From a virus: a DNA stretch of 23,375 nucleotides. A program made the translations under genes and the position numbers. The stretch spans positions 1 through 23,375 of IMG/VR virus record IMGVR_UViG_3300028859_000060. The stretch is one strand, 5' to 3'. Shown one piece after another: positions 5,419 through 23,097 of the stretch; within the stretch, counting starts at the first letter, position 1, and each line of letters opens with the position of its first letter. Below the pieces are notes generated by a model. It saw only the letters and a program-made list of their open reading frames with translations, was not told the origin of the DNA and did not search any database.

Positions 5419-5448
5419 TTGACATGAGGATAAATACAATGTTACTAT
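5419..5448 (+). promoter_or_regulatory. Possible sigma70-like promoter upstream of gp32
   Basis: A perfect -35 TTGACA (5419-5424) is followed after 18 bases by TACTAT (5443-5448), a moderate -10. It overlaps the late-type motifs nearby, so gp32 may have both early and late transcription. The -10 match is imperfect. Confidence 0.4.
5429..5437 (+). promoter_or_regulatory. Late-promoter-like motif GATAAATAC
   Basis: GATAAATAC in the 5325-5512 gap before gp32, the same form as the copy upstream of the fibre gene at 23097. It could be one of two tandem late promoters for gp32. Confidence 0.35.
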
Positions 5449-5455
5449 ATAAATA
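5448..5455 (+). promoter_or_regulatory. T4-type late promoter TATAAATA upstream of gp32
   Basis: An exact TATAAATA, the T4 late consensus, lies in non-coding DNA about 58 bases before the chosen gp32 start. No competing coding explanation exists if gp32 starts at 5513. Confidence 0.5.
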
Positions 5456-5512
5456 GTAACAAACATGGTTGATACAAAATATAAATTAAATTATGGTATA
5501 TGGAGAAATGAC

Positions 5513-6577: not shown

Positions 6578-7510
6578 ATGGCAAAGCCTTTTGATGTAAG
6601 TCGTTTTAGGAAAAGCATAACCAAATCAATAGAAGGCATGAGCATTGGTTTTCGTGATCCAAAGATTTGGATTTCAACTGGAAACTATTGTCTTAATTAT
6701 TTAATTAGTGGAAGATTTGATACAGGCATCCCGTTGGGAAAAATTACAGTATTTGCAGGCGCTCCAGGAGCAGGAAAATCATTAATTGTATCTGGAAATA
6801 TTATAAAAGATGCACAAGAACAGGGAATTTATGTAATTTTAATTGATAGTGAAAATGCTCTTGATGAAGATTGGTTGAAAGCATTGGGAGTTGATACAAG
6901 CGAAGATAAGTTACTGAAATTAAATATGGCAATGATTAATGATGTTGCTAAAATGATCAGTGATTTTGTTAAGCAATATAAATTGATTCCAGTTGATGAA
7001 CGACAAAAAGTATTATTTGTGGTTGATTCTTTGGGTATGCTTTTAACTCCTACTATGGTAAATCAAATGGAAGCAGGATCTATGAAAGGAGATATGGGAA
7101 TTAAAGCCAAACAGCTAAAAGCAATGATTATTAATTGCGTTAATATGTTTGGTGATCTCGATATAGGAATGGTGGCAACAAATCATATCTATTCTTCTCA
7201 AGATCAATATTCAGATGATATAATTTCAGGCGGGTGTTTAACAAATGATCATAAAATACAGTTAGTTAACGATGAGTTAAAATTAATTGGAGATATTAAA
7301 GTTGGTGATATTGTTAAAACTTTGGATGGCGATAAAGAAGTTACAGAAACTTATAATTATCTTGATAAAGAAGTGTTTGAATTACAACTAGAGGATGGGC
7401 AAATTATTAAAGCTACTTCGGAACATAAATTTTTAGTAGAATCTGATGATGGTTATATTTGGAAAAAAGTAGCAGATTTAAATGAAGAAGATGAAATCTT
7501 ATCCCTTTAA
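6578..7510 (+). CDS. uvsX: UvsX recombinase N-terminal part fused to the N-half of a split intein
   Basis: Residues 1-219 are the N-terminal part of a T4 UvsX/RecA-family strand-exchange ATPase: Walker A GAPGAGKS (61-68), catalytic-Glu region IDSENALDEDW (89-99), Walker B VLFVVDS (145-151) and the loop region ending DDIISGG (213-219). Residue 220 is Cys, and residues 220-310 read as an intein N-half of 91 residues: block A starts CLTNDHKI, then IGDIKVGDIV, and block B KATSEHKFLV with the T-x-x-H motif. The frame then stops at TAA 7508-7510. The break falls where RecA-family proteins place the end of the DNA-binding L2 loop. Shine-Dalgarno sequence aggag precedes the ATG. Activity requires joining to the product of 7675-8205. 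A lone N-part would lack a complete recombinase core. Confidence 0.93.
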   Translation: MAKPFDVSRFRKSITKSIEGMSIGFRDPKIWISTGNYCLNYLISGRFDTGIPLGKITVFAGAPGAGKSLIVSGNIIKDAQEQGIYVILIDSENALDEDWLKALGVDTSEDKLLKLNMAMINDVAKMISDFVKQYKLIPVDERQKVLFVVDSLGMLLTPTMVNQMEAGSMKGDMGIKAKQLKAMIINCVNMFGDLDIGMVATNHIYSSQDQYSDDIISGGCLTNDHKIQLVNDELKLIGDIKVGDIVKTLDGDKEVTETYNYLDKEVFELQLEDGQIIKATSEHKFLVESDDGYIWKKVADLNEEDEILSL

Positions 7511-7694
7511 TCCTGATCCTCCACTAATATTATCATAAATAAGAGCAAAAAATATATGGAATGAAGATAATGAGAGAATAGAAGCAATAAAACGTCTTAG
7601 AAATTTTAAAGTATTCATTGTTTGGGAAAGTGAAGCGAAATTAATGATAACTAAAATTAAAGAGGAAATTAAAAATGAAATCAATAAAAATTAA
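7491..7694 (+). pseudogene. Remnant of a Vsr-like homing endonuclease between the intein halves
   Basis: In the frame of base 7491 an ATG opens 15 codons (MKSYPFNPDPPLILS), then TAA at 7536-7538, then the same frame runs open to TAA 7692-7694. The second part contains AKNIWNEDNERIEAIKRL and FKVFIVWESE, which fits the C-terminal end of Vsr/EDxHD-type homing endonucleases (W-x-x-D/E-x-x-R-x(4)-L, then V-x-VWE). No start codon, catalytic core or full domain remains. Known fractured split-intein genes carry a free-standing homing endonuclease at exactly this position, so this is best read as an internally deleted relic. The call rests on a short motif. Confidence 0.6.
7661..7666 (+). promoter_or_regulatory. 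Ribosome binding site for the intein C-half/UvsX C-part gene
   Basis: agagga lies 8 bases before the ATG at 7675. It supports independent translation of the second half of uvsX, as a split intein would need, rather than a frameshift artefact in one gene. Confidence 0.75.
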
Positions 7695-8205
7695 ATCAAA
7701 GCAATGTATTGGAATTAAGCCAGTTTACGATATTCAAGTAAAAGATGCTCATCATTATATATTAGAAAATGGAGTAATAAGTCATAATAGTGGTTTTCTC
7801 TTTGCCAGCAGTATTATTGTATCAATGGATGTTTTTAAGTTAAAACAAGATGAAGAAGGAAACAAAACTAAAGAAGTTGCTGGAATTAGATCAAAATGTA
7901 AAGTGGTAAAATCCCGTTATAATAAACCGTTTGAATCAGTGGAAATTCACATCCCGTATGCTTCAGGAATGGACCCATATTCAGGATTGTTCGATTTATT
8001 TTTTGAAAAACAGCATTTACTTACTAAAGCTGGCAATAGATATGTTTATACTGACTTAACTGGAGTAGAGCATTCACATTGGAAGAAAGATTATCTAACA
8101 AATAAAGATCAAATTCTTGATTTGATAATGAAAGAATTTGATCCAGAAAAAGTAAATATGACTAGTACTGTGGAAGATATTTCAGAAGAAACAGAAGAAG
8201 AATAA
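7675..8205 (+). CDS. uvsX: C-half of the split intein fused to the UvsX recombinase C-terminal part
   Basis: Residues 1-38 form the intein C-half: a basic start (MKSIKIKSK), block F VYDIQVKDAHHYILENG and block G VISHN ending in His37-Asn38. Residue 39 is Ser, a valid +1 nucleophile, followed by GFLFASSIIVSMDVFKL, which aligns with T4 UvsX just after its SGG. The rest (39-176) holds the C-terminal RecA-fold strands, SKCKVVKSRYNKPFE and the GMDPYSGLFD block typical of UvsX (T4 GIDPYSGLLD), then an acidic tail. Splicing would give 219 + 138 = 357 residues, a little shorter than T4 UvsX (391). The 91 and 38 residue halves match the sizes of known naturally split phage inteins. It shares an operon with 6578-7510. 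Confidence 0.93.
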   Translation: MKSIKIKSKQCIGIKPVYDIQVKDAHHYILENGVISHNSGFLFASSIIVSMDVFKLKQDEEGNKTKEVAGIRSKCKVVKSRYNKPFESVEIHIPYASGMDPYSGLFDLFFEKQHLLTKAGNRYVYTDLTGVEHSHWKKDYLTNKDQILDLIMKEFDPEKVNMTSTVEDISEETEEE

Positions 8206-9318: not shown

Positions 9319-9612
9319 TCAACTCTCCAGTTTGATAATTAACGCTAGATTATAGTTAGCTCTCAATAATTCATTTATTTCATAAAGTTTATTGCTACTT
9401 ACATTGGAATCCGCTGGTATAAGTTTTTCAATTTCATCTATACGCGCATCGAACACTCTAATGTTTTCATTTTCTTCTATATCCATAGAATCCATGTCAA
9501 ATCTTGAAATATAATTAAGAAATATATCAATCATTTCGTTACGAATTGGATCATAATCTTTGGCTTTTTTAATCTTCCACATATTTTCTTGCGATGCAAT
9601 GATCTGGTTCAT
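9319..9612 (-). CDS. Small protein of unknown function, member of the C-terminal-helix family
   Basis: This 97-residue acidic helical protein has an internal run DSMDIEENENIRVFDARIDE and ends with a helix NKLYEINELLRANYNLALIIKLES. The last residues IIKLES match the 10424-10627 gene exactly. Its ATG overlaps the stop of the upstream gene (ATGA), so the two are coupled. Function unknown. The shared terminal helix suggests a common partner or descent by duplication. Confidence 0.6.
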   Translation of the reverse strand: MNQIIASQENMWKIKKAKDYDPIRNEMIDIFLNYISRFDMDSMDIEENENIRVFDARIDEIEKLIPADSNVSSNKLYEINELLRANYNLALIIKLES

Positions 9613-9954: not shown

Positions 9955-10182
9955 TTAGCTTGCCAACTTTCTAATAAGTAGTTCGTTTTTCAATACTTGT
10001 AGTTCTGCCATCACTTTGCTTTCATTATTGCGAATAAAAGAATCTCTAATACAATAAAAATGGAAGTTGGTAAATATAGTAAACTTTTTATCTTCTGGTG
10101 AAAATGGATACGATAATTTTTTTACTATGTCTTTATATATTCTTTCAATATCATTGATTTCTTTCATTAATTCATTTTTCAT
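9955..10182 (-). CDS. Small helical protein of unknown function, member of the C-terminal-helix family
   Basis: This 75-residue protein reads as two helices (LMKEINDIERIYKDIVKKL and a C-terminal one) joined by an aromatic linker FTIFTNFHFYCIRDSF. It ends ESKVMAELQVLKNELLIRKLAS. The ending fits the pattern shared with at least eight other small genes on both strands. The ATG overlaps the upstream stop (TAATG). Function unknown. Confidence 0.6.
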   Translation of the reverse strand: MKNELMKEINDIERIYKDIVKKLSYPFSPEDKKFTIFTNFHFYCIRDSFIRNNESKVMAELQVLKNELLIRKLAS

Positions 10183-10424
10183 TATCTGGCCAACTTTATC
10201 ATAAGCAATATATATTGAATTGTCATTTTTGGGTAACGCATTTCTAACATTGCTTCATTTATAAGCAATGTTAGAAATGCTTTAGTACATTCTGGATGTG
10301 CTAGAATTAGTTCTCTGCAAATTTTGATATTTTCAATAAGTGTGGCATCTGAAAAAGAACCTGGTAAGATTAGTGGAAGAAACTCTTTCAAAACTGTCTT
10401 CTTCGTTTTGTCTGATATTTTCAT
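10182..10424 (-). CDS. Small helical protein of unknown function, member of the C-terminal-helix family
   Basis: This 80-residue protein has Lys-rich residues 1-20, then DATLIENIKICRELILAHPE and LTLLINEAMLEMRYP, ending TIQYILLMIKLAR. Its end RYPKM-x-x-x-x-ILLMIKLAR is close to that of the 10424-10627 protein (RYPDM-x-x-x-x-IRLIIKLES), so these two are likely tandem duplicates. The gene contains a perfect 18-bp inverted repeat at 10238-10280, covering the LTLLINEAML codons. It is coupled at both ends by TAATG overlaps. Confidence 0.6.
   Translation of the reverse strand: MKISDKTKKTVLKEFLPLILPGSFSDATLIENIKICRELILAHPECTKAFLTLLINEAMLEMRYPKMTIQYILLMIKLAR
10238..10280. repeat. Perfect 18-bp inverted repeat inside a coding region
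   Basis: The arms 10238-10255 and 10263-10280 are exact reverse complements around the 7-base loop catttat. In the minus-strand mRNA this forms a strong hairpin in the 3' part of the 10182-10424 gene. Confidence 0.95.
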
Positions 10425-10627
10425 TATGACTCCAATTTTATTATTAGTCGAATATCTTCTGGTGACATATCTGGGTATCTCTCAAATAAAATTTGAGCAA
10501 GCATGAACATATTTCGCCCAAAGATATAGGAACCAACGTCTGAATGTTCACGTTCAGACGCAAATTCGCTAAGTAATCTGTCAATTAGGTCCAAGCACCA
10601 ATAACTTTCATAATTCTCAGTATTCAT
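10424..10627 (-). CDS. Small acidic helical protein of unknown function, member of the C-terminal-helix family
   Basis: This 67-residue protein contains YWCLDLIDRLLSEFASEREH, then a Gly/Phe-rich turn and a helix FMLAQILFERYPDMSPEDIR, ending IRLIIKLES. It is the shortest clear member of the family and resembles the next gene downstream over its last 20 residues, including RYP-x-M. The DNA for SEREHSDV forms an inverted repeat (cgtctgaa ... ttcagacg, 10537-10560). Function unknown. Confidence 0.6.
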   Translation of the reverse strand: MNTENYESYWCLDLIDRLLSEFASEREHSDVGSYIFGRNMFMLAQILFERYPDMSPEDIRLIIKLES

Positions 10628-11293: not shown

Positions 11294-11995
11294 ATGAATG
11301 AAAAAGCACAACTGGCTGCTGTTCAACAAAATGGTCGTGCAATTGAATACATCGACAATCCAAGCGAAGCTGTGCAACTGGCTGCTGTTCAACAAAATGG
11401 TTGTGCAATTTACCACATCAGCAAGCCAAGCGAAGCTGTGCAACTGGCTGCTGTTCAAGAAGATGGTTGTGCAATTGAATACATCAGCAAGCCAAGCGAA
11501 GCTGTGCAACTGGCTGCTGTTCAAGAAGATGGTTATGCAATTCAATTCATCAGCAATCCAAGCGAAGCTATGCAAATGGCTGCTGTTCAACAAAATGGTT
11601 ATGCAATTCAATTCATCAGCAATCCAAGCGAAGCTGTGCAACTGGCTGCTGTTCAAGAAGATGGTTGTGCAATTCAATTCATCAGCAATCCAAGCGAAGC
11701 TGTGCAAATGGCTGCTGTTCAAGAAAATGGTTATGCAATTCAATTCATCAGCAATCCAAGCGAAGCTGTGCAACTGGCTGCTGTTCAAGAAGATGGTTGT
11801 GCAATTCAATTCATCAGCAATCCAAGCGAAGCTGTGCAAATGGCTGCTGTTCAAGAAAATGGTTATGCAATTCAATTCATCAGCAATCCAAGCGAAGCTG
11901 TGCAACTGGCTGCTGTTCAACAAAATGGTTGTGCAATTAAATTCATAAAAAATCCAACAATTAATGTCAAATTAGTGGCTAAATTGCTGTCTTAA
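11294..11995 (+). CDS. Ten-copy 22-residue repeat protein (DUF4116-like repeats)
   Basis: This 233-residue protein consists almost only of ten tandem 22-residue repeats with consensus QLAAVQ-x-x-GCAIQFISNPSEAV, each probably a pair of short helices forming a solenoid. It ends in a short degenerate tail (INVKLVAKLLS). There is no signal peptide, membrane segment or catalytic motif. The repeats match those in the second half of the 574-1908 protein, so this looks like a detached binding-scaffold version. The promoter spacing places the transcription start on the A of the ATG and no Shine-Dalgarno sequence exists, so the mRNA is probably leaderless. Other frames are also open only because the 66-base repeat length is a multiple of 3. 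Function unknown; protein binding is the likeliest inference. Confidence 0.8.
   Translation: MNEKAQLAAVQQNGRAIEYIDNPSEAVQLAAVQQNGCAIYHISKPSEAVQLAAVQEDGCAIEYISKPSEAVQLAAVQEDGYAIQFISNPSEAMQMAAVQQNGYAIQFISNPSEAVQLAAVQEDGCAIQFISNPSEAVQMAAVQENGYAIQFISNPSEAVQLAAVQEDGCAIQFISNPSEAVQMAAVQENGYAIQFISNPSEAVQLAAVQQNGCAIKFIKNPTINVKLVAKLLS
11309..11960 (+). repeat. Tandem 66-bp repeat array (10 units) with a 132-bp higher-order repeat
   Basis: The motif caactggctgctgttcaa recurs every 66 bases from 11309 (next at 11375). Later units alternate between GCA/QM and GYA/QL types, giving a near-exact 132-base unit copied twice between about 11660 and 11925. This points to recent expansion by slippage or unequal recombination. 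Confidence 0.9.
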
Positions 11996-13276: not shown

Positions 13277-13567
13277 ATGCTATGGGTTATTAAACAAAGA
13301 AGTGATTATCTTACTCTTCGTAGTGATTTAATAACAATACATCGAAAAGAATCTCATCGCTCTTGCGGAGATGAAGTAGCAAATGCATTTAATTCAATGG
13401 TTTGTAAAACTGTTAATCAGTTGGATTCCATTTTTGGAGTTGGATATATACAAAAATATTGCACAGAACCAGAGTCAATGTATATATCAGAAAAAAATAT
13501 TTCCAGAGCGAATAGAATTTTGAAGAGATTGGAGCACGAATACTTGATTAAAAAATTAGCAGAATAA
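13277..13567 (+). CDS. Small helical protein of unknown function, member of the C-terminal-helix family
   Basis: This 96-residue protein has a good Shine-Dalgarno sequence (aaggag, 13264-13269, 7 bases from the ATG). It starts MLWVIKQRSDYLTLRSDL and ends ISRANRILKRLEHEYLIKKLAE. Although it is on the plus strand, its last helix and KKLAE ending match the minus-strand genes at 9319-10627. Function unknown. Confidence 0.6.
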   Translation: MLWVIKQRSDYLTLRSDLITIHRKESHRSCGDEVANAFNSMVCKTVNQLDSIFGVGYIQKYCTEPESMYISEKNISRANRILKRLEHEYLIKKLAE

Positions 13568-14682: not shown

Positions 14683-15134
14683 ACTACACAATTCTTGCAT
14701 ACAAACCAGACTCTGACGACTACTGCATGGGGTGTGTCAGGGCCAGATACTCTGCTGACTTTGAATATCGCTGCACTGAAAGTCGAGAAGAGGCTGTCAA
14801 ATTCATCATTGAAAAGTTGAAGGCTAATAAGAAAATGGAGTTCAATGAATCAGGATACGAAATAACCATCCTCATCAATGGCAAGGAAGTCGATTCAGGC
14901 ACATGGCTTGATGAAACTGAAACGTGGGATTATTCAGATAAGGAGACCGCCCAATCGATGATGCAGGAGGCTGAAGCGATGCTTGGGAGTGAAGAAGCAG
15001 ATGCTAAGGCAAAAGCTGAGGCCGCTGAGGAGGCTCAGAAGGCCGCTGACAAGGTTCGTAAGGCGCAGGAGAAGGAAGAGAACGACGCGAAAGAGTACGA
15101 ACGTCTCAAAGCAAAATTTGAAATGAAAGGATAA
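14679..15134 (+). CDS. Protein of unknown function with C-terminal coiled coil (G+C-rich cassette, gene 2)
   Basis: This 151-residue protein has an N-terminal alpha/beta domain: MNYTILAYKPDSDDYCMGCV, then a strand-helix with CTESREEAVKFIIEKL and YEITILINGKEV. From about residue 95 it is a strongly Ala/Lys/Glu-rich coiled coil ending EYERLKAKFEMKG. The shared tail with the upstream gene implies duplication of the end or a shared partner. It is coupled by the ATGA overlap and has the same G+C-rich codon use. Not recognised. Confidence 0.65.
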   Translation: MNYTILAYKPDSDDYCMGCVRARYSADFEYRCTESREEAVKFIIEKLKANKKMEFNESGYEITILINGKEVDSGTWLDETETWDYSDKETAQSMMQEAEAMLGSEEADAKAKAEAAEEAQKAADKVRKAQEKEENDAKEYERLKAKFEMKG

Positions 15135-15136
15135 CT

Positions 15137-15235
15137 ATGTTGATTGCTATCGCATTCGTTGTGTTATTCGTGACTTGTTTGAGAGAAGAGGCACACAGTA
15201 ATAAAAAACAAAGAACTGATTCGACTGTTGCTTGA
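15137..15235 (+). CDS. Very small single-pass membrane protein
   Basis: This 32-residue protein starts 2 bases after the previous stop, with aagga (15127-15131) upstream. Residues 2-15 (LIAIAFVVLFVTCL) are hydrophobic, enough for a short membrane helix, followed by a charged tail REEAHSNKKQRTD. It resembles the tiny phage membrane proteins found in accessory regions. Function unknown. It is the second such protein in this region. Confidence 0.55.
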   Translation: MLIAIAFVVLFVTCLREEAHSNKKQRTDSTVA

Positions 15236-15291
15236 AGAATACCCTAGTGGGAAGACTGGGAAACCGTGCCATCTTCTGGGATGATTAAATT

Positions 15292-15321
15292 AAAATAGCC
15301 AGATAATTTCTGGCCATTTTT
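15292..15321 (+). terminator. Terminator with TGGCCAGA-type stem
   Basis: aaaatagccaga pairs with tctggccatttt (one A-C mismatch near the base) around a 5-base loop, followed by T. It ends the 14212-15235 group and insulates the next operon. Confidence 0.8.
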
Positions 15322-15334
15322 GCATTGGAGAAAT

Positions 15335-15652
15335 ATGATTGAATTGCCATATATGAAAAGCAGAGAATGGCTGAAAAGACAATGTGAAAATTTTTCGTCA
15401 TTAGTTACAACAGATTTGTATGCTGGTATGCCAGCATACAAACTTCACAGATACATATTAATTAGAGGAATTCTCTTTAATATAGAAACTGACATTAATC
15501 AGTGGCAACGATTGGATCGTTGTCGTCGGAACCAAACAACTGGAATTTTTTTAAAAGGAAAAGCAGCGGTCCATCGTCGTCATACTAACAAACTAAATAA
15601 ACGTATTAATAAATTATATAATATTCTGTTGATTGATAAATTATCGATATGA
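15335..15652 (+). CDS. Small basic protein of unknown function, possible member of the C-terminal-helix family
   Basis: The protein has 105 residues from the ATG at 15335, with ggaga at 15327-15331. It is basic throughout, with REWLKRQCENFSSL, a Tyr-rich middle LYAGMPAYKLHRYILIRG and a basic cluster LDRCRRNQTTGIFLKGK. It ends HTNKLNKRINKLYNILLIDKLSI, a variant of the shared terminal helix. The DNA for LYAGMPAYK forms a perfect 10-bp inverted repeat (15417-15440). The stop overlaps the next ATG. It may bind nucleic acid. Confidence 0.55.
   Translation: MIELPYMKSREWLKRQCENFSSLVTTDLYAGMPAYKLHRYILIRGILFNIETDINQWQRLDRCRRNQTTGIFLKGKAAVHRRHTNKLNKRINKLYNILLIDKLSI
15417..15440. repeat. Perfect 10-bp inverted repeat in coding sequence
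   Basis: tgtatgctgg and ccagcataca flank the 4-base loop tatg. It could form a hairpin in the mRNA or be a site for a dimeric protein. No terminator tail. Confidence 0.9.
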
Positions 15653-15900
15653 CAAAAAATGAATTACATATATACGAGTTGAGCGAATGGCCAAAAAAAT
15701 ATAAAGTCATTATTAATTTAATATGTCCAATTATTGGATATTGGCTGCACCTAAATAACGAAATTAATTTAAAATTAAATGAAATTACTATAGATGTTGA
15801 TAATGCTGTGCAAATTGGAAGAATATTTGCATCAAATGAAATTAATGAAAAGATAGATAATCTTTTTACTCTAATTATGATAGCAAAGTTTATAGAATGA
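15649..15900 (+). CDS. Small helical protein of unknown function
   Basis: This 83-residue protein is coupled by ATGA overlaps at both ends. Segments include LSEWPKKYKVIINLICPIIG, the strand/helix EITIDVDNAVQIGRIFASN and the tail FTLIMIAKFIE. The ending is a weak variant of the L-x-x-K-L-x-x pattern, with Phe for Leu. Function unknown; it is probably expressed with its neighbours from one mRNA. Confidence 0.5.
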   Translation: MTKNELHIYELSEWPKKYKVIINLICPIIGYWLHLNNEINLKLNEITIDVDNAVQIGRIFASNEINEKIDNLFTLIMIAKFIE

Positions 15901-16175
15901 AAAATTCATATCAAGAATTAGAAAAACGATATAAATTATTGATGGGTTATATTCACGAATATTATATAAAATGTGATTATACTTATCCTTACATTATTTC
16001 TCTAGAAGAAGATGCATTTCTTAATAATGAATATAAATTATATAATTATTATTATTTCTTTATAAAAACAGTTAACGATATGCACTCTCACACCCGAAAA
16101 ATTAAATATAAACAGATAGTTAACTTAATGACTGAAATAGAAAATTATTTGTTAGAATGGAGATTATCATCATGA
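15897..16175 (+). CDS. Small Tyr-rich helical protein, member of the C-terminal-helix family
   Basis: This 92-residue protein is very rich in Tyr and Asn (YELHEYYIKCDYTYPYI-like composition) with basic patches. It ends YKQIVNLMTEIENYLLEWRLSS, matching the family pattern with Arg in place of Lys. Its ATG overlaps the upstream stop and its stop overlaps the next ATG. Function unknown. Confidence 0.55.
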   Translation: MKNSYQELEKRYKLLMGYIHEYYIKCDYTYPYIISLEEDAFLNNEYKLYNYYYFFIKTVNDMHSHTRKIKYKQIVNLMTEIENYLLEWRLSS

Positions 16176-16429
16176 CTATTTCTCAAAGATATAAATTTTT
16201 ATATACACAAATTAGAAAAATAAGTAATGCATATAATTTTCTTATTAAAGATGTAGAATTTCAAGAAATTTTAGATATATTGTCTGACTTGAAAAGAAGC
16301 ATTTATAATTAGGACAACGGATATTATCACTATTTAAGCGCAAAAGAACAATATGATTATCAGGAAGTATTAATTAATAAATTGGATGATTTAGAAAATA
16401 AAATTCTACTTTTTAAGTTGGCTCGATGA
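16172..16429 (+). pseudogene. Small family gene interrupted by an in-frame amber codon
   Basis: From the ATG at 16172 the frame encodes MTISQRYKFLYTQIRKISNA and continues to TAG at 16310-16312, giving 46 residues. The same frame stays open after TAG (DNGYYHYLSAKEQYDYQEVL) and ends NKILLFKLAR at TGA 16427-16429. The terminal helix matches the family, so an 85-residue gene seems to have been broken by one nonsense change. Other genes here end in TAG (for example 1908), so genome-wide TAG recoding is unlikely. Suppression or sequencing error remain possible. It overlaps the upstream stop by ATGA. Confidence 0.6.
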
Positions 16430-16446
16430 GAGATTTATTTGAACGA

Positions 16447-16454
16447 TATAAATA
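16447..16454 (+). promoter_or_regulatory. T4-type late promoter TATAAATA
   Basis: An exact TATAAATA lies 45 bases before the reductase ATG, overlapping the left arm of the 16452-16489 hairpin. The expected start, about 6 bases after it, lies inside that arm, so the late RNA would lack a complete stem. Confidence 0.55.
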
Positions 16455-16489
16455 TAACGAAAGAGACTATTATCTCTCTTTCGTTATAT
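16452..16489 (+). other. 15-bp perfect hairpin in the 5' region of the reductase gene
   Basis: atataacgaaagaga (16452-16466) pairs exactly with tctctttcgttatat (16475-16489) around an 8-base loop. The Shine-Dalgarno sequence agga follows at once. There is no T run, so it is not a classical terminator. Read-through RNA would form it, and late RNA would not. Confidence 0.85.
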
Positions 16490-16498
16490 AAGGAAAAA

Positions 16499-17401
16499 AT
16501 GAAGATATATGTGTTGGGCTGTGCTGGAATGCTTGGGAATGCTTTATATAAATATTTTACAAACAAACAGAATTATGTTTTTGCAACAGATATTAATTTA
16601 ATTGATAAATGGCTTTATTATAGAGATGTCAAAGATTATGAAGGAATGCTCCGAGATGTAACTATATTTAAGCCTAATGTGATTATTAATCTTGCTGCAA
16701 TGACTGACTTAGAAGAATGCGAACTTAATGCTAGAGAATCTATGGAAGTAAATGCTATTGGCTCTGCTAATTGTGCAGCTTTAGCAAGACTTCAAAATGT
16801 TCCATATGTTTACATAAGTACTGCTGGAATATTTGATGGTTCACAAGAAGAGTATTCAGAAGAAGATATTCCCAACCCTCTTAGTTGGTATGCAAAGTCT
16901 AAATATCAAGGTGAACTTTTTGCTGAAACTGCTCCAAAGCATATTATATTACGTTGCGGTTGGCAAATGGGAGGATGTAATGCAGACAAAAAATTTATTT
17001 ATAAAATTATGAAGCAATTAAAATCTGGAGTTACAGAATTAAATGTAGTGCAAGATAAATTAGGAAGCCCAACATATACCATAGATTTTACAAAACAAAT
17101 TGAAAAAATGCTCCAAACAAAATCATATGGAATATGGAATGCTGTTTGCCAAGGAAATGCAAGTAGATACGATGTTGCTATTGAATTAATAAAATTACTT
17201 AATTTAGAAAATACCATTAAAGTAAACATAGTTGCATCTGATTTTTTTTCTGAGACATTTTTTGCTCCCAGACCAGCGAGTGAAAAATTAATAACAAATA
17301 AAATTAAAAATTCAGGATTATATGTAATGAGACACTGGAAAGAATGTCTTAAAGATTATATTACAAATAATCCAGATTACTTTACATTGGATGAAAAATA
17401 A
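16499..17401 (+). CDS. RmlD-like sugar-nucleotide reductase (short-chain dehydrogenase fold)
   Basis: The protein has 300 residues from the ATG at 16499. That start leaves the Rossmann motif GCAGMLG at 7-13 near the N-terminus and has agga just upstream; an open extension back to 16439 crosses the hairpin. NAAMTDLEECE-like loops, the STAGIF strand (107-112) and Y131-x-x-x-K135 (YAKSK) match the extended SDR family, near dTDP-4-dehydrorhamnose reductase. It would reduce a 4-keto sugar nucleotide with NAD(P)H in the cytoplasm. The next gene, a glycosyltransferase, overlaps its stop (TAATG), so the two probably make or attach one glycan. Exact substrate unknown. Confidence 0.85.
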   Translation: MKIYVLGCAGMLGNALYKYFTNKQNYVFATDINLIDKWLYYRDVKDYEGMLRDVTIFKPNVIINLAAMTDLEECELNARESMEVNAIGSANCAALARLQNVPYVYISTAGIFDGSQEEYSEEDIPNPLSWYAKSKYQGELFAETAPKHIILRCGWQMGGCNADKKFIYKIMKQLKSGVTELNVVQDKLGSPTYTIDFTKQIEKMLQTKSYGIWNAVCQGNASRYDVAIELIKLLNLENTIKVNIVASDFFSETFFAPRPASEKLITNKIKNSGLYVMRHWKECLKDYITNNPDYFTLDEK

Positions 17402-19590
17402 TGAATTCAACACAAGATTGCATATTGGGAGTATTGTCAGGGACAAAATATGTTTTGAAGTATGAAGGTATTGAAGCATATTTAGTGTCTATAAAAAAGA
17501 GTGGGTTTAAAGGTAGAAAAGTGATGATCGTGTGGAACATCCATCCCATTGCACGAAAATTATTACAAGAATATGGTTTTGAATTAATTGATGTAAAGTC
17601 AAAATCTCATAATGAATCATTCTTTCATGCTAGAATAAGAGTAGCCCAAGAGTATCTTGGAAATCATTATAAAGAATTTCGTTACATTTTCTGGTTGGAT
17701 ATCAAAGATGTAGTTCTGCAATCTGATCCAAGTATTTGGATGGAAGAAAATATTGGAAATTATAAATTAGTTGGGTCCACAGAATGTGTAACTATTGAGC
17801 AAGAAGAAACTAATCAGTTATGGGCCAGAGACGTGCTTGGAAAAGATCGTTACGAAGAAATAAAAAATGAAGAAGTAATTAATGGTGGAACTTTTGCTGG
17901 AGAGGCAAAATTAATTGCAGAATTGTTTCATCAGACTTATTTAATTACAAAAGAATATTCTGGACCTCATCCTCCGTGCCAACCAGCAATAAATTATGTT
18001 TTTAGACAGCACCCATTTTCAGATCATTTGTATATTCCTAGATGGTCTAAAAGTTTTGCAGCATGTTTACATCCAGTTTGGTCATGGAGCGCCAGAGAAA
18101 AATTAAGATTCTATTTAAGAGATAAACCCCCAGTGCTTAATATGGAAACTGGTATTTTATATCCTGGAACAATCAGTGATCCAAAAAATGATATGATTGC
18201 TTTTAATCGTTATTCATTGGAGATAATTTCTGCTGAAGCAGGACCAATGATTGGCTGCGAATGCGTAAAATCGACAAACACTAAACCATTTGCCATAGTT
18301 CATGGATATGATAGAGATTGGCAGATAAGGGAATTAATGGAATCAAAATATACAATGGAGTATAAAGTGAATAATAAAGTTTCTATTTTTACACCAACAC
18401 ATAATTCTGAATTTTTACCAGAAATTTATAAAAGTTTGCAAGCACAAACAGACCCAGATTGGGAATGGATTATCATTTATAATCATGACGGGAAACCATT
18501 AACTTTTAATGATGACAGAGTAAAAGGATATGTAGTTTACAATGTTCCAGAATGGGTTGGTCCTCTAAAAGCAATGGCATGTGAAAAAGCTACAGGAGAT
18601 ATTCTTTTAGAACTCGATCATGATGATTTACTTATGCCAACAGCTATTGAAGAAGTAAAAAAAGCATTTGAAGATCCTGAAGTTGGATTTGCATATTCAA
18701 ATACTATTCATTGCACTGGAGATTATCAAAAAATTGATAGATTTAGCACTTATTATGGATGGAAATATAGAGAAGTAGAATTTCAAGGACATATTTTAGA
18801 TGAGCATATTTCATTTGAACCTACTCCTGAGTCTATATCTAGAATTTGGTTTGCTCCAAACCATTTAAGAGCATTTCGACGTTCAGCTTATGATAGTGTA
18901 GGCGGATATAATATGGAAATGAGAATTTTAGATGATTTGGATTTAATGTGTAAGTTGTATAGAGTTACAAAATTTAAGCATATAGACAAAGGGTTATATA
19001 TCTATCGAGTACATGGAAACAACACTTGGATAAAATATAATGCAGAAATTCAAAACAACGTTTATAGAATTTATGATCAATATATAGAAAGTTTGGCAGA
19101 AACTTGGGCTGAAAATTCTGGTCTTAAAAAAATAGAAGTTGGCGGAAGAATGGCTGCTAAATTTGGTTATGAAACTGTAGATTTAAAAGACGCAGATATT
19201 ATGTGTGATTTAAATGGAAGATGGCCATATGCAGATAGTTCTGTTGGAGTAATTAGATCATTTGATGTTTTTGAGCATTTGCTTGATCCAATTCATACTA
19301 TGAAAGAACTTCAAAGAGTATTAGCGCCAGGAGGTTGGGCATTTATACAGGTTCCCAGCACAGACGGAAGAGGAGCTTTCCAAGATCCTACGCATAAATC
19401 TTTCTGGAATATTAATTCTTTTAAATATTATACTGAAGCTAATATGGCAAAATATATTGATAATCCAGTTAGATTTCAAGCACCTAGATTATATGACACA
19501 GATAGAAATCCAGACGGAGTAATTTGGACTAGAGCGCATTTAATTTGTTGTAAAGATGGGTATCGTCCTTGTGGAGCATTAGATATTTAA
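17401..19590 (+). CDS. Three-domain glycosyltransferase / GT2 glycosyltransferase / methyltransferase
   Basis: This 729-residue protein has three parts. Residues 1-320 are a GT-A-like transferase with FWLDIKDVV (Asp100-x-x-Asp103, metal site) and GGTFAGE. Residues ~324-560 are a family 2 glycosyltransferase: VSIFTPTHNSEFLPEIYKSL, the LDHDD metal motif with Asp406-x-Asp408, and a late LDDLDLMCKL segment. Residues ~575-729 are a class I SAM-methyltransferase-like domain with DLNGRWPY and DVFEHLLDPIHTMKEL, then a PGGW strand, but no clear GxGxG loop. Such proteins build or modify polysaccharide or glycosylate phage proteins or DNA. The coupled RmlD-like gene suggests an unusual sugar. Fusion of three activities is notable. 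Target unknown. Confidence 0.85.
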   Translation: MNSTQDCILGVLSGTKYVLKYEGIEAYLVSIKKSGFKGRKVMIVWNIHPIARKLLQEYGFELIDVKSKSHNESFFHARIRVAQEYLGNHYKEFRYIFWLDIKDVVLQSDPSIWMEENIGNYKLVGSTECVTIEQEETNQLWARDVLGKDRYEEIKNEEVINGGTFAGEAKLIAELFHQTYLITKEYSGPHPPCQPAINYVFRQHPFSDHLYIPRWSKSFAACLHPVWSWSAREKLRFYLRDKPPVLNMETGILYPGTISDPKNDMIAFNRYSLEIISAEAGPMIGCECVKSTNTKPFAIVHGYDRDWQIRELMESKYTMEYKVNNKVSIFTPTHNSEFLPEIYKSLQAQTDPDWEWIIIYNHDGKPLTFNDDRVKGYVVYNVPEWVGPLKAMACEKATGDILLELDHDDLLMPTAIEEVKKAFEDPEVGFAYSNTIHCTGDYQKIDRFSTYYGWKYREVEFQGHILDEHISFEPTPESISRIWFAPNHLRAFRRSAYDSVGGYNMEMRILDDLDLMCKLYRVTKFKHIDKGLYIYRVHGNNTWIKYNAEIQNNVYRIYDQYIESLAETWAENSGLKKIEVGGRMAAKFGYETVDLKDADIMCDLNGRWPYADSSVGVIRSFDVFEHLLDPIHTMKELQRVLAPGGWAFIQVPSTDGRGAFQDPTHKSFWNINSFKYYTEANMAKYIDNPVRFQAPRLYDTDRNPDGVIWTRAHLICCKDGYRPCGALDI

Positions 19591-19648: not shown

Positions 19649-21109
19649 TTATTCAAATAATCCATTAATCATTACTGTTCCTTGAAATTGTTCTGAACCA
19701 GTCGCTGTTCCTACTGGAACACAAAGAATAATGTGAACATAGTTTCCAGCTTCACACATCAATGGATAAGGAAATTGAATATCCAAATCAGTTGTAGTTT
19801 GTCCAATTACAGCACCCACTGGAAAATATTGTTGTCCAAGATCAACAACGCGAGGAGCTTTTGCAGCAGCACCTTCAGCGCCAGTTAAAACGTTTGTTGA
19901 ACTTCCTACTCCAATAGCCCATTGCAGTACTGTTGGAGTAGTTGCTACAACCGCACCAAAGTTCATTGTTGAAATGTGTATTCCTCGAATATATAATGTT
20001 TTTCCAGGAACGTTTGCTGAAGCAACTGGCACTTGAAAAGCAAATAATGGAAAGTCAGTTACAGCAGCACCAACCGCAGTAAAGTTAAATCTTCCACCTA
20101 ACTTGGTATAGTTTGGTGTAGCTATGTTTAATGCTGTGTTTACTGCTCCAGTGCTGTTAGTGTGGTTTGCAGTAGAACCAAAAGCACCAGTTCCAGATTG
20201 GCCTTGAATTGAACTTGCGCCAAGACCAGCAAGTGTCATTTCATATGCACGGTTGGTATTTAAGTCAGGTTGCCAACATGAGCATGAGAAGATACCCAAT
20301 TGGACAGCTAATGCTGGAGCAATAGAAGTACTATTATATACTCGAAATGATATTGGCAAATCTTGTGTGATAACTGGCAAACCTGCTCCAGAAGGTGTTG
20401 CGACAATAGCTTGAAGAATGTTGTTAATCCAAAATTCAACAAATGCACGACCTATAATAATTCTGAATTTATATGTAGTATTAGCTATTGGAGGAGTAAG
20501 AGAGACAGTGTTGTATGTTTCAGTTCCGTTGAAGTTTACAACACAAACAAAATTTCCTGCTGCATTCCAACGAAAGAACACACCATCAGTTGGAGCGGCT
20601 GTTGTTGCAGCATAACCTAAACCAATTTCTACAGTAGAGTTCGGAACAATGTTGGATGCTGCTTGATATGCAGCCACAGTTTCAAATATTGTGCAAAAAC
20701 CAGAATAAATTGGAAATGTTCTCCAAGTTTTTAATACAGCAGTTGCGCTTGTAGCTGTAGATGATCCAGAATTTAAAGTCTGTTTTCCATTAGCCTGTGA
20801 TTGGGTAAAAGTAGTTAAGGCAGTATTCCATAAAGCAGTATTAGTTGCAGAACCATTGAATACTTCGTTAAATAATAAGTTATCCATTCCTACTTGAAGT
20901 CGGCGGAATTCGTGAGCATTTAAAGCGCGATTAAGTGGAGTTCCAGTAATAAGACCAGCATCAGCTTCAGCGACAAGTCTCTCTCCTCCACCAATGTTAG
21001 TAGGAACGCTGCTTGCATCCTGTGTTTTTGGTGTAACAGTTAGCTGACGATTTAAAGTATCAACTTCTGCGCCGTTTCCTGATGAAAATCCTTGTAATGC
21101 TAGTGCCAT
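19649..21109 (-). CDS. Presumed virion protein, tandem paralogue 1
   Basis: The protein has 486 residues from the ATG at 21109, chosen because gggaga lies 6 bases upstream; a longer frame starts at TTG. It is rich in Ala, Thr, Ser and Asn, with very few Lys, typical of phage structural proteins. Order: an N-terminal linker with TVTPKTQDASSVPTNIGGGE, a region FNEVFNGSATN, a lectin/jelly-roll-like part (SNIVPNSTVEIGLGYA, GVFFRWNAAGNFVCVVNFNG, RAFVEFWINNILQAIV) and a C-terminal beta part (VPGKTLYIRGIHISTM, DIQFPYPLMCEAGNYVHII, FQGTVMINGLFE). It is homologous along its length to the gene upstream. Likely a capsid decoration, tail or fibre-associated protein; no name can be given. Confidence 0.75.
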   Translation of the reverse strand: MALALQGFSSGNGAEVDTLNRQLTVTPKTQDASSVPTNIGGGERLVAEADAGLITGTPLNRALNAHEFRRLQVGMDNLLFNEVFNGSATNTALWNTALTTFTQSQANGKQTLNSGSSTATSATAVLKTWRTFPIYSGFCTIFETVAAYQAASNIVPNSTVEIGLGYAATTAAPTDGVFFRWNAAGNFVCVVNFNGTETYNTVSLTPPIANTTYKFRIIIGRAFVEFWINNILQAIVATPSGAGLPVITQDLPISFRVYNSTSIAPALAVQLGIFSCSCWQPDLNTNRAYEMTLAGLGASSIQGQSGTGAFGSTANHTNSTGAVNTALNIATPNYTKLGGRFNFTAVGAAVTDFPLFAFQVPVASANVPGKTLYIRGIHISTMNFGAVVATTPTVLQWAIGVGSSTNVLTGAEGAAAKAPRVVDLGQQYFPVGAVIGQTTTDLDIQFPYPLMCEAGNYVHIILCVPVGTATGSEQFQGTVMINGLFE

Positions 21110-21126
21110 AATAGTCTCCCACAATA

Positions 21127-21135
21127 TTATTTATG
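21127..21135 (-). promoter_or_regulatory. Late-promoter-like motif CATAAATAA
   Basis: On the minus strand CATAAATAA lies in the short gap between the two paralogues, followed by gggaga and the ATG at 21109. The placement suits a late structural gene. Confidence 0.4.
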
Positions 21136-21139
21136 ATTT

Positions 21140-22612
21140 TTATTCATAAACTCCATCAATAATTACTGTTCCTTGAAAATCTTGGTTTGCTGTAGTTGCT
21201 CCAACTGGTATGCATACACCGACATGAACAAAACATAAAGCTTCGCACATTAATGGATAATAAAATTGAATATCTAGATCAGGTGGAGCAAATCCGATGG
21301 GGGAACTTGTAGGGAAATATTGCATTCCCAAATCAAGAATTCTTGGAGCCTTTGTCGCAGTTCCTTCTGCTTGCGCCAAAGTTGCTGATGAACTTCCAAC
21401 ACCAATAAACCATTGAAGAGTTGATGGGGTTGTTGCACTAACAGCTACAGCAGACGCTTGGTTTCCAACCATTGTTGAAATGTGTATTCCTCGAATATAT
21501 AATGTTTTTCCAGGAACGTTTGCAGCAGCAGTTGCTCCTGCTTGCAAACCAAATACAATATAATCTGTGACTGCTCCAGCAATCGATGCAAATAAAAATC
21601 TACCACCTAATTTTACATATTCAGCAGTTGTATTGGCCAAAGCTACCGCAGTTGCAGCAGTACTAATAGTGTGATTTGCTGTTGATCCAAATGCTCCTGA
21701 TCCAGATTGACCTTGTGCTGAACTTCCCCCAAGACCAACAAGAGACATTTCATAAACTCGTTCTTCATAAAAATCAGATACATAAACACTAGTGGAAATA
21801 ACTGATAATTGAACGGCTGATGTTGGTGAAATAGAAGTACTATTATATACTCGAAATGATATTGGTAAATTTTGTGTTATTATGGGAAGTCCTTGTGTAC
21901 CAGGAGGAGAAATAATAGCTTGCAAAATATTATCAATCCAAAATTCAACTTGGTCAATTCCTGAAACAATACGATATAGATGAACAGAATTTGCAGTTGG
22001 GGGAGTTAAATTATTTGAAAAAGTTTCTGATCCTCCACTATTTTGGACACAGAAGAAATTACCACCAGACCATCTAAAAAATAATCCGTCAGTTGGTGTT
22101 GCTACGTTCGTTGCAACATATCCAAGACCAAGTTCAACTACTGTATTGTTTATGTTTCCTGATGCTTGATATGATGCAACCATCTCAAAAGAAGTTGTAA
22201 AACCAGAATATATAGGGAAAGTTCTATAGCTTTTTACAACAGCATAAGTGCTTGTAGCAACAGATAATCCAGCATTTAAGGTCATCTTGCCGCCAGCTTC
22301 AGTTTGAGTCATTGTTGATAATACAGAATTCCAAATTGCAGTATTTACAGCAGCACCATTAAATACTTCATTAAATAATAATGTATCTGCACCAGACTGT
22401 AATTTGCGAAATTCTAAAGAATTTAAAGCTTTAGTGGTTGCAGAGCCAGATACTAAACCAGCATCAGTCTCCACTACTAACCTTTCTCCTCCAGCTATAT
22501 TAGTCGGTACGCTCGATGAATCTTGAGTTTTTGGGGTTATATTAAACTTACGATTCAAAGAGTCATTTTCTGCTCGATTTTGTGTTGTAGAGCCAATAAG
22601 ATTAAATGCCAT
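21140..22612 (-). CDS. Presumed virion protein, tandem paralogue 2
   Basis: The protein has 490 residues from the ATG at 22612, two bases after the stop of the gene upstream; a longer frame would overlap that gene. The N-terminus (MAFNLIGSTTQNRAENDSLN, then NITPKTQDSSSVPTN) and the whole order of blocks match the paralogue at 19649: FNEVFNGAAVNTAIWNS, NINNTVVELGLGYVAT, FWIDNILQAIISP, ISFRVYNSTSISP, VPGKTLYIRGIHISTM and FQGTVIIDGVYE. Two coding segments are identical to the paralogue at the DNA level (54 and 36 bases). This is an old duplication with local sequence sharing. A structural role is likely, perhaps one paralogue per symmetry site. Confidence 0.75.
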   Translation of the reverse strand: MAFNLIGSTTQNRAENDSLNRKFNITPKTQDSSSVPTNIAGGERLVVETDAGLVSGSATTKALNSLEFRKLQSGADTLLFNEVFNGAAVNTAIWNSVLSTMTQTEAGGKMTLNAGLSVATSTYAVVKSYRTFPIYSGFTTSFEMVASYQASGNINNTVVELGLGYVATNVATPTDGLFFRWSGGNFFCVQNSGGSETFSNNLTPPTANSVHLYRIVSGIDQVEFWIDNILQAIISPPGTQGLPIITQNLPISFRVYNSTSISPTSAVQLSVISTSVYVSDFYEERVYEMSLVGLGGSSAQGQSGSGAFGSTANHTISTAATAVALANTTAEYVKLGGRFLFASIAGAVTDYIVFGLQAGATAAANVPGKTLYIRGIHISTMVGNQASAVAVSATTPSTLQWFIGVGSSSATLAQAEGTATKAPRILDLGMQYFPTSSPIGFAPPDLDIQFYYPLMCEALCFVHVGVCIPVGATTANQDFQGTVIIDGVYE

Positions 22613-22614
22613 AA

Positions 22615-23097
22615 TTAATACCACCACCAATTAGCATAAAAATTTCCAGTTACATATGTATCAGTTGAAGCAGTTATAGTAAAACCTATGCCAGGAGTTA
22701 TATTTCCACCAATTAGGGACATATCAGATAAAGTATATTCATCTTGAGAATGGCCACTCGCTGGAGGATTGGTGGAATCCAGCCATACTAAAAGATTTGA
22801 AGTTGCTAGTATATTTGCTTGTCCTGTAATATTTTTTGTTGTATAATTACTTCCTGGGGCTGACCCAAAATTTATCGCTACATTATTTCCAGTAGCACCT
22901 ATTGTTCCAATTGGTCCTTGTGTCCCTTGTGGACCAGCAGCCACATAAGGAAGGGAAGCCCACAAAGAAATACCATTTCCAAGTTTAAAATTGTTTGTAT
23001 CACTTTCTAGTCCCAATTCTCCTGCAAGCAATAAAGGATTATTGGCAGTCCAGTTGGCTGCTGTGTCGTACCTAAATTGGAATCTGGCAGAAATCAT
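22615..23097 (-). CDS. Collagen-like tail fibre or fibre-tip protein
   Basis: This 160-residue protein has an N-terminal domain MISARFQFRYDTAANWTANN, then LLLAGELGLESDTNNFKLGN and GISLWASLPY, a module common at the start of phage fibre and hyaluronidase-like proteins (A-x-W-x(4)-P-x-L-x-x-GE-x-G-x-E, LGNG). It is followed by Gly-X-Y triplets GPQGTQGPIGTIGATG, a short collagen-like trimer stalk, and a beta-rich end finishing NFYANWWWY. Shine-Dalgarno aaggag lies upstream and a GATAAATAC motif sits 41 bases before the start. It probably forms a trimeric virion fibre segment. Confidence 0.7.
   Translation of the reverse strand: MISARFQFRYDTAANWTANNPLLLAGELGLESDTNNFKLGNGISLWASLPYVAAGPQGTQGPIGTIGATGNNVAINFGSAPGSNYTTKNITGQANILATSNLLVWLDSTNPPASGHSQDEYTLSDMSLIGGNITPGIGFTITASTDTYVTGNFYANWWWY

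Follow-up and report, generated by a model that had tools for sequence, protein, structure and literature searches.

A candidate promoter-choice hairpin beside the ribosome-binding site of a nucleotide-sugar gene in a T4-related large phage

In phage T4, the Shine-Dalgarno sequence and/or the AUG of the genes e, soc, 49 and I-TevI is described as lying inside an RNA helix (PMC3014915, section 29). The same section names e, 49, I-TevI, I-TevII and segB as genes for which inhibitory structures are shown, predicted or implicated, and the effect reported for e is 100-fold (PMC3014915). The T4 late promoter motif occupies positions -13 to -6; other T4-like phages are described as conserving the first T of the motif poorly (PMC1524935). 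For hairpins upstream of ribosome-binding sites, a standby-site scheme of the form As = 15 + P + D - H has been set out (PMC3936740). Among the matches listed in our literature search on a promoter/hairpin device, T4 was the only system.

The element described here is located in a virus record of 23,375 bases, the whole of which is referred to as the window. A contig of 72,594 nt (G001) represents the same phage, with 99.79 and 99.95% identity in two main blocks. As it is identical to the window over the element, it provides extra sequence without offering an independent comparison. The terminase is 49.9% identical to that of PA5oct and 39.9% identical to that of 121Q, and the phage also encodes single-strand-binding (gp32-type), UvsX-like and UvsY-like proteins; on the basis of these proteins, we place it among the T4-related large myoviruses. 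A search of eight records with T4 gp55 retrieved Atu_ph07 (E 1.7e-6), PA5oct (E 0.003) and T4 itself; with this query, the partial 72.6-kb contig, G002, G006, G008 and 121Q gave no gp55 homolog. At gathering scores, no Rfam family matched anywhere in the window.

Several other features of the window deserve mention. The UvsX-like gene is split over two frames (6578-7510 and 7675-8205), the first of which ends in an intein-like N-terminal part (Pfam Intein_splicing and Hint matches, both below their cut-offs). The second has its own Shine-Dalgarno sequence and begins with an intein-C-like stretch ending in HN, followed by the remainder of UvsX; this arrangement may represent a natural split intein. 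A hairpin (TGTTACTAT...AGTAACA) with a late-type ATAAATA in its loop precedes the gp32-like gene. It occurs in two diverged phages (67% protein identity), at 5430-5470 of the window and at about 1088 of L035, 57 nt before the start in both. A long tandem-repeat protein of NPSEAVQLAAVQ units is encoded at 11294-11995 and resembles the DUF4116 protein (574-1908) in style, and the two assemblies align across these repeats in many alternative registers. At 19649-22630 (minus strand), two genes that look alike, about 490 aa each, stand in tandem; they adjoin a gene (22615-23097) whose product carries an Mtd N-terminal domain, and a frame with collagen-like GNQG repeats.

The element sits between co-directional small frames (15649-16429) and a two-gene glycan cassette (Table 1). 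The start of the RmlD-like gene at ATG 16499 is backed by an ortholog (57% identity) whose alignment begins at residue 1, and this gene is likely to share one transcript with the glycosyltransferase/methyltransferase gene that follows. Located 44 nt from the ATG, the promoter TATAAATA is found exactly at 16447-16454 and shares 3 nt with the left arm of a perfect inverted repeat (16452-16466/16475-16489; 15/15 pairs, 8-nt loop). The stem ends at 16489 and AAGGA follows from 16490; the hairpin is retained in the fold of a 261-nt read-through RNA. Both AAGGA (16490-16494) and ATG 16499 are unpaired in the long-RNA fold. The Shine-Dalgarno duplex has an energy of -6.2 kcal/mol (with an assumed 16S tail), and an alternative longer pairing through UAAGGA would use U16489, which also contributes to the last stem pair. 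A preliminary description of this DNA had placed TATAAATA at the edge of a perfect 15-bp inverted repeat, with the whole hairpin next to the Shine-Dalgarno sequence in read-through RNA. This geometry of motif, hairpin and Shine-Dalgarno sequence is confirmed.

Table 1 Features of the element and its surroundings in window coordinates.
Feature	Position	Strand	Remark
Upstream co-directional small frame	16172..16429	+	in-frame TAG 16310-16312
Sigma70-like site TTGTCT-18-TATAAT, 10/12	16280..16309	+	could start long RNA across the hairpin
21-codon open frame MRDLFERYKYNERDYYLSFVI	16426..16491	+	spans hairpin; ATGA overlap with upstream frame
Late-type promoter element TATAAATA	16447..16454	+	core ATAAATA 16448-16454; predicted +1 16460
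Hairpin left arm ATATAACGAAAGAGA	16452..16466	+	first 8 nt 5' of predicted late start
Hairpin loop, 8 nt, CTATTATC	16467..16474	+	
Hairpin right arm TCTCTTTCGTTATAT	16475..16489	+	in long RNA and predicted late RNA
Shine-Dalgarno AAGGA	16490..16494	+	directly 3' of stem
RmlD-like dTDP-4-dehydrorhamnose reductase/nucleotide-sugar epimerase, 300 aa	16499..17401	+	PF04321 E 1.2e-53; phrog_540
Glycosyltransferase + methyltransferase gene, 729 aa	17401..19590	+	one-base overlap with RmlD stop

The 8-mer TATAAATA occurs close to chance both in the window (5 copies versus 3.7 expected) and in the 72.6-kb contig (15 versus 17 for the reversed control). It was therefore discarded as evidence in favour of the 7-mer ATAAATA, which is enriched and strand-biased. 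Indeed, ATAAATA is the most enriched 7-mer within 70 nt upstream of called genes (21 versus 2.1 expected, in a ranking limited to 7-mers seen at least 5 times), and 25 sense sites lie at most 80 nt from a start codon in this phage as against 3 reversed sites. Only 10 of these 25 lie at a spacing of 15-22 nt, which looks typical. Sense and reversed counts were 54/9 in G002, 13/0 in G006, 8/3 in each of G004 and G005, 15/5 in G008, 36/15 in PA5oct, 32/10 in T4 and 44/16 in Atu_ph07. G007 is the exception among the larger records tested, with no strand bias (6 versus 6). The late-type motif is thus real in this phage and in most of the relatives tested, and the enrichment and the strand bias fit the earlier designation of the site as a late promoter. 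Applying the T4 spacing, in which the motif lies at -13 to -6, the late start is predicted at 16460, inside the left arm. Late RNA would lose 8 of the 15 arm bases, and 7 of the 15 pairs could still form; the earlier claim that late RNA begins within the left arm agrees with this prediction, whereas its corollary, that such RNA lacks the hairpin, goes too far. A start 3-5 nt after the motif, instead of 6, would leave a hairpin of 8-10 bp in late RNA.

The hairpin has a minimum free energy of -18.7 kcal/mol (47 nt), and none of 200 dinucleotide shuffles folded as well. Perfect stems of at least 15 bp are expected at a mean of 0.025 per 72.6 kb (40 first-order Markov sequences). The real contig yields 6 stem entries of at least 15 bp and 9 of at least 14 bp, tallied per innermost pair without individual inspection. 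As there are 6 such entries, a strong stem by itself is not special here, but its position is. The placement of a strong stem after an early-type cluster and ahead of a new gene could also suggest an intrinsic terminator for the upstream small genes. However, no T-run follows the stem on either strand, and a terminator scan of 15000-17600 gave a single site at 15298-15314, with none called between 15315 and 16452; we reject this scarcely credible option. An RNase III site usually needs two helical turns, more than the 15 bp found here, and this candidate was likewise set aside.

We propose that the element may be a cis-acting timing switch operated by promoter choice, an adjacent-helix variant of the control of T4 e, 49 and I-TevI, and assign this model-based reading a probability of roughly one half. 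RNA reading in from the co-directional small genes would carry the full 15-bp hairpin, the base of which abuts the Shine-Dalgarno sequence of the RmlD-like gene. The 30S subunit would then be left almost without a single-stranded standby region, and translation would be reduced. Following a switch to the late sigma factor, RNA would begin at about 16460 within the left arm and retain at most a weak 7-bp remnant, leaving the ribosome site open, such that the RmlD and glycosyltransferase genes would be translated late. Control would be exerted by an adjacent helix, instead of by burying the Shine-Dalgarno sequence or AUG as in T4 e, 49 and I-TevI. Sigma70-like sites that might initiate long RNA occur near chance in the region (22 found versus 17.4 expected).

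To quantify the extent to which late initiation frees the ribosome site, we scored how much more it costs to open positions -20 to +12 in read-through RNA than in late RNA. A blind scan covered 258 motif sites from T4 and its relatives, using gene calls from our own simple script and no published gene finder. Sites less than 12 or more than 110 nt from a called start were dropped, as were those at most 60 nt from the beginning of a record or with the same 60-nt core as an earlier site. The bases used amounted to 398,100 of 490,380 for Atu_ph07, 238,900 of 239,163 for G002, 39,900 of 40,735 for G004 and 59,800 of 59,911 for G007. Loci L016, L019, L020, L026, L029 and L043 were omitted because their larger record was used, and L021 because a record resembling that of L020 was used. 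L041, L042, L044 and L046 were omitted because they appeared to duplicate L043; L034 belongs to the same phage, and L133/G010 lies outside the 258 sites. Matched controls were genes without the motif, drawn with replacement.

At the present site, the opening cost falls from 16.4 kcal/mol in the long RNA to 3.5 kcal/mol in the predicted late RNA, and the read-through cost was matched by 4 of 1000 upstream shuffles. The resulting score of 12.9 kcal/mol ranks 9th of 258, and no other of the 23 sites in this phage reaches 8 kcal/mol. In T4, 6 sites score at least 10 kcal/mol, corresponding to 5 genes: 49, e (two promoters), I-TevII, segB and I-TevI. All 5 are named in section 29 of PMC3014915, which supports the scan. 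T4 soc, which belongs to the four genes that the review lists first, scores just 1.6 kcal/mol (rank 153 of 258), and real cases thus escape the scan.

Outside T4, 16 of 224 sites score at least 10 kcal/mol (this site included, and one Atu_ph07 gene counted twice), compared with 1.7 in shuffles and 16 among 896 draws of matched controls (Fisher p 1.1e-4). Lowering the threshold to 8 kcal/mol gives 19 of 224 versus 38 of 896 (p 0.016). Taking all sites against matched genes, the ratio is about 3.4-fold at 10 kcal/mol (22/258 versus 26/1032) and about 2.1-fold at 8 kcal/mol (27 versus 51), much smaller than the enrichment over shuffles. A separate stem count over 83 sites found 14 with stems of at least 7 bp across the predicted start, versus 2.5 in shuffles. 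The upstream neighbour is co-directional at 21 of 22 strong sites and at 167 of 235 others (p 0.011), an excess that is not significant at cut-offs of 8 (p 0.17) and 6 (p 0.21). Among the genes downstream of strong sites are those for three orthologous neck-type proteins (phrog_211; G002, G006 and G005). Another matches a homing endonuclease weakly (phrog_7504, E 2.1e-4), and one encodes a member of the 'ATP-dependent protease' family (phrog_27368, E 3e-18), which we take to be ClpS-like; 5 of the 10 proteins scanned had no family match.

Helices extending as far as the ribosome site are enriched, a result that favours an RNA element and bears on the possibility that the dyad is a DNA operator, bound by a phage or host repressor and overlapping the late promoter. 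The perfect 38-bp dyad (8-bp spacer) does cover -8 to +30 of the predicted start. However, its arms are AT-rich, and a 401-base query centred on this region matched in the window only itself and its own other arm; we consider an operator very improbable.

Among neck-type orthologs examined by reading their folds, a hairpin covers the ribosome site in 3 of 8 and is absent in the other 5. In the phrog_211 genes of G002 (121884-122639, minus strand), G006 (7078-7833, plus strand) and G005 (23463-24230, minus strand), bases downstream of the late motif pair with the Shine-Dalgarno region in each case, and the stem sequences differ among the three.

The size of the predicted effect depends on the footprint chosen. 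For footprints starting at -10, -14 and -18, the difference between read-through and late RNA at this site is 2.2, 5.9 and 12.9 kcal/mol, respectively, while at -10 the T4 values are 13.7 (e) and 10.7 kcal/mol (gene 49). The small difference at -10 arises because the Shine-Dalgarno sequence is located beside the helix and not inside it. A similar profile is seen at G002:33040 (-2.3 at -10, 1.8 at -14 and 13.2 at -20), where a 12-bp RNA stem is directly followed by AGGA and a late-type motif lies at the left edge of the stem. This stem (MFE -18.3) is part of a 28-nt perfect DNA palindrome, and the gene downstream is unrelated to RmlD. The abutting sub-type thus has at least 2 strong cases. With assumed coefficients, the standby-site estimate is a 7- to 9-fold drop for 8 nt of free upstream RNA, and a 2- to 27-fold drop over the range of 2-12 nt. 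The translational block is predicted to be weaker here than at T4 e, its size hinging on how much free RNA is needed upstream.

This dependence on the footprint is one reason to ask if the late promoter might be real and the hairpin of little consequence for translation, serving RNA stability or persisting as a leftover. The unpaired state of the Shine-Dalgarno sequence and AUG in long RNA fits such a view, as do the hairpins at late-type sites G1:54614 and G1:57401, which are far from a ribosome site, and the description of ribosomes accommodating or partly unfolding upstream hairpins (PMC3936740). It leaves aside that the stem terminates right at the Shine-Dalgarno sequence, that the left arm spans promoter to predicted start, and that so few shuffles reach the opening cost. 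We regard a hairpin of little effect as unlikely.

The short frame that crosses the element invites the main rival explanation, in which ribosomes translating these 21 codons on long RNA would open up the hairpin and terminate at TAA 16489-16491, by the Shine-Dalgarno sequence of the RmlD-like gene. Translation of the latter would then depend on reading of the leader frame. The hairpin would in that case block uncoupled initiation and not early expression as such. In favour of coupling, an ATGA overlap marks the start of the frame, as it does for the frames upstream, and its end coincides with the Shine-Dalgarno sequence. On the other hand, motif-crossing frames that end near a start are similarly common at strong (10/22) and other sites (96/236), and the Shine-Dalgarno sequence of the 21-codon frame is weak (-4.0 versus -6.2 kcal/mol). 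Moreover, the upstream frame that would deliver the ribosomes is interrupted by TAG 16310 in both assemblies, and the closest analogue, G002:33040, is without such a frame. Translational coupling appears improbable.

The interrupted frame (16172-16429) has ATGA overlaps with its neighbours at both ends and is identical in the second assembly; its TAG may represent either a nonsense mutation or stop read-through. It ends in LLFKLAR, one instance of a signature of roughly LIIKLA[SRE] or IKLES that forms the extreme C-terminus of small, otherwise differing proteins of the early-type clusters, including those at 9319-9612 and 9955-10627 (minus strand) and at 13277-13567 and 15649-15900 (plus strand). 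The signature is present in 6 of the 68 ATG-started ORFs of at least 40 aa in the window. Among called short genes, L035 has it in 3 of 8 and L036 in 3 of 11, the three tails being shared by both loci; the counts were 0 of 7 in L037, 0 of 141 in G002, 0 of 208 in PA5oct, 0 of 124 in T4 and 0 of 410 in Atu_ph07.

Conservation does not extend from the gene to the hairpin, which is absent from both other RmlD loci found (L133 and L138). In L133, the closest cassette ortholog, the neighbour is divergent, a late-type motif occurs 61 nt upstream, and the start codon has no hairpin close by; an imperfect 11-nt inverted repeat (2997-3007/3025-3035) overlaps the motif and stops over 60 nt short of the start codon. 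In L138, the RmlD gene follows a glycosyltransferase-like gene with overlapping ends. Neither motif nor hairpin occurs just upstream of it, and ATAAATA precedes the first gene. The arrangement at these two loci is what read-through control predicts.

Beyond this locus, we tentatively consider that T4-related large phages might widely use promoter-choice hairpins to silence late genes in read-through RNA. An equally tentative part of this proposal is a standby-removing sub-type, in which the helix stops at the Shine-Dalgarno sequence, as seen here and in G002 before the gene of the ATP-dependent-protease family. If correct, a trick of a few T4 genes would be a general device of T4-related large phages that can be listed from sequence alone, and its abutting form would test whether a block of the standby region suffices to time a gene. 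The scan yields ranked candidates in the cultured phages T4, PA5oct and Atu_ph07, with PA5oct 135020 and Atu_ph07 219830 among the sites predicted to behave in this way.

The preliminary description had invoked the logic of T4 e and soc, in which early transcripts are blocked and late ones translated. In its favour, this architecture is over-represented in T4-related phages and the scan picks up T4 cases that the review lists; its geometry needed amendment, since the T4 Shine-Dalgarno sequence or AUG is described as part of the helix (PMC3014915), while here both lie outside it. With this correction the interpretation is plausible, with a predicted effect of moderate size, and we infer those steps that go beyond the sequence. 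In common with T4 hairpin control, the late-type promoter lies in or beside the left arm; here a late start is also predicted to remove part of that arm, and the helix to affect the ribosome site of read-through RNA. TATAAATA agrees with the T4 pattern of a late promoter placed where the DNA codes for the 5' strand of the hairpin, whereas the T4 placement of the Shine-Dalgarno sequence and/or AUG in the helix is not seen: T4 buries them, and here they are free, with the helix abutting the Shine-Dalgarno sequence. The T4 examples include a lysis gene and homing endonucleases, in contrast to the nucleotide-sugar gene considered here. A hairpin beside the ribosome site is also a feature of the split ribosome sites of T4 genes 38 and 25, where, as described in section 29 of PMC3014915, it lies between the Shine-Dalgarno sequence and AUG and aids initiation; here it is 5' of the Shine-Dalgarno sequence, and the normal spacing of the latter excludes a split site of this kind. 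In the synthetic 5' UTRs of E. coli described in PMC3936740, a tall hairpin with little proximal free RNA lowers initiation, a likeness to the present locus; those hairpins are constitutive, whereas here promoter choice would remove the hairpin.
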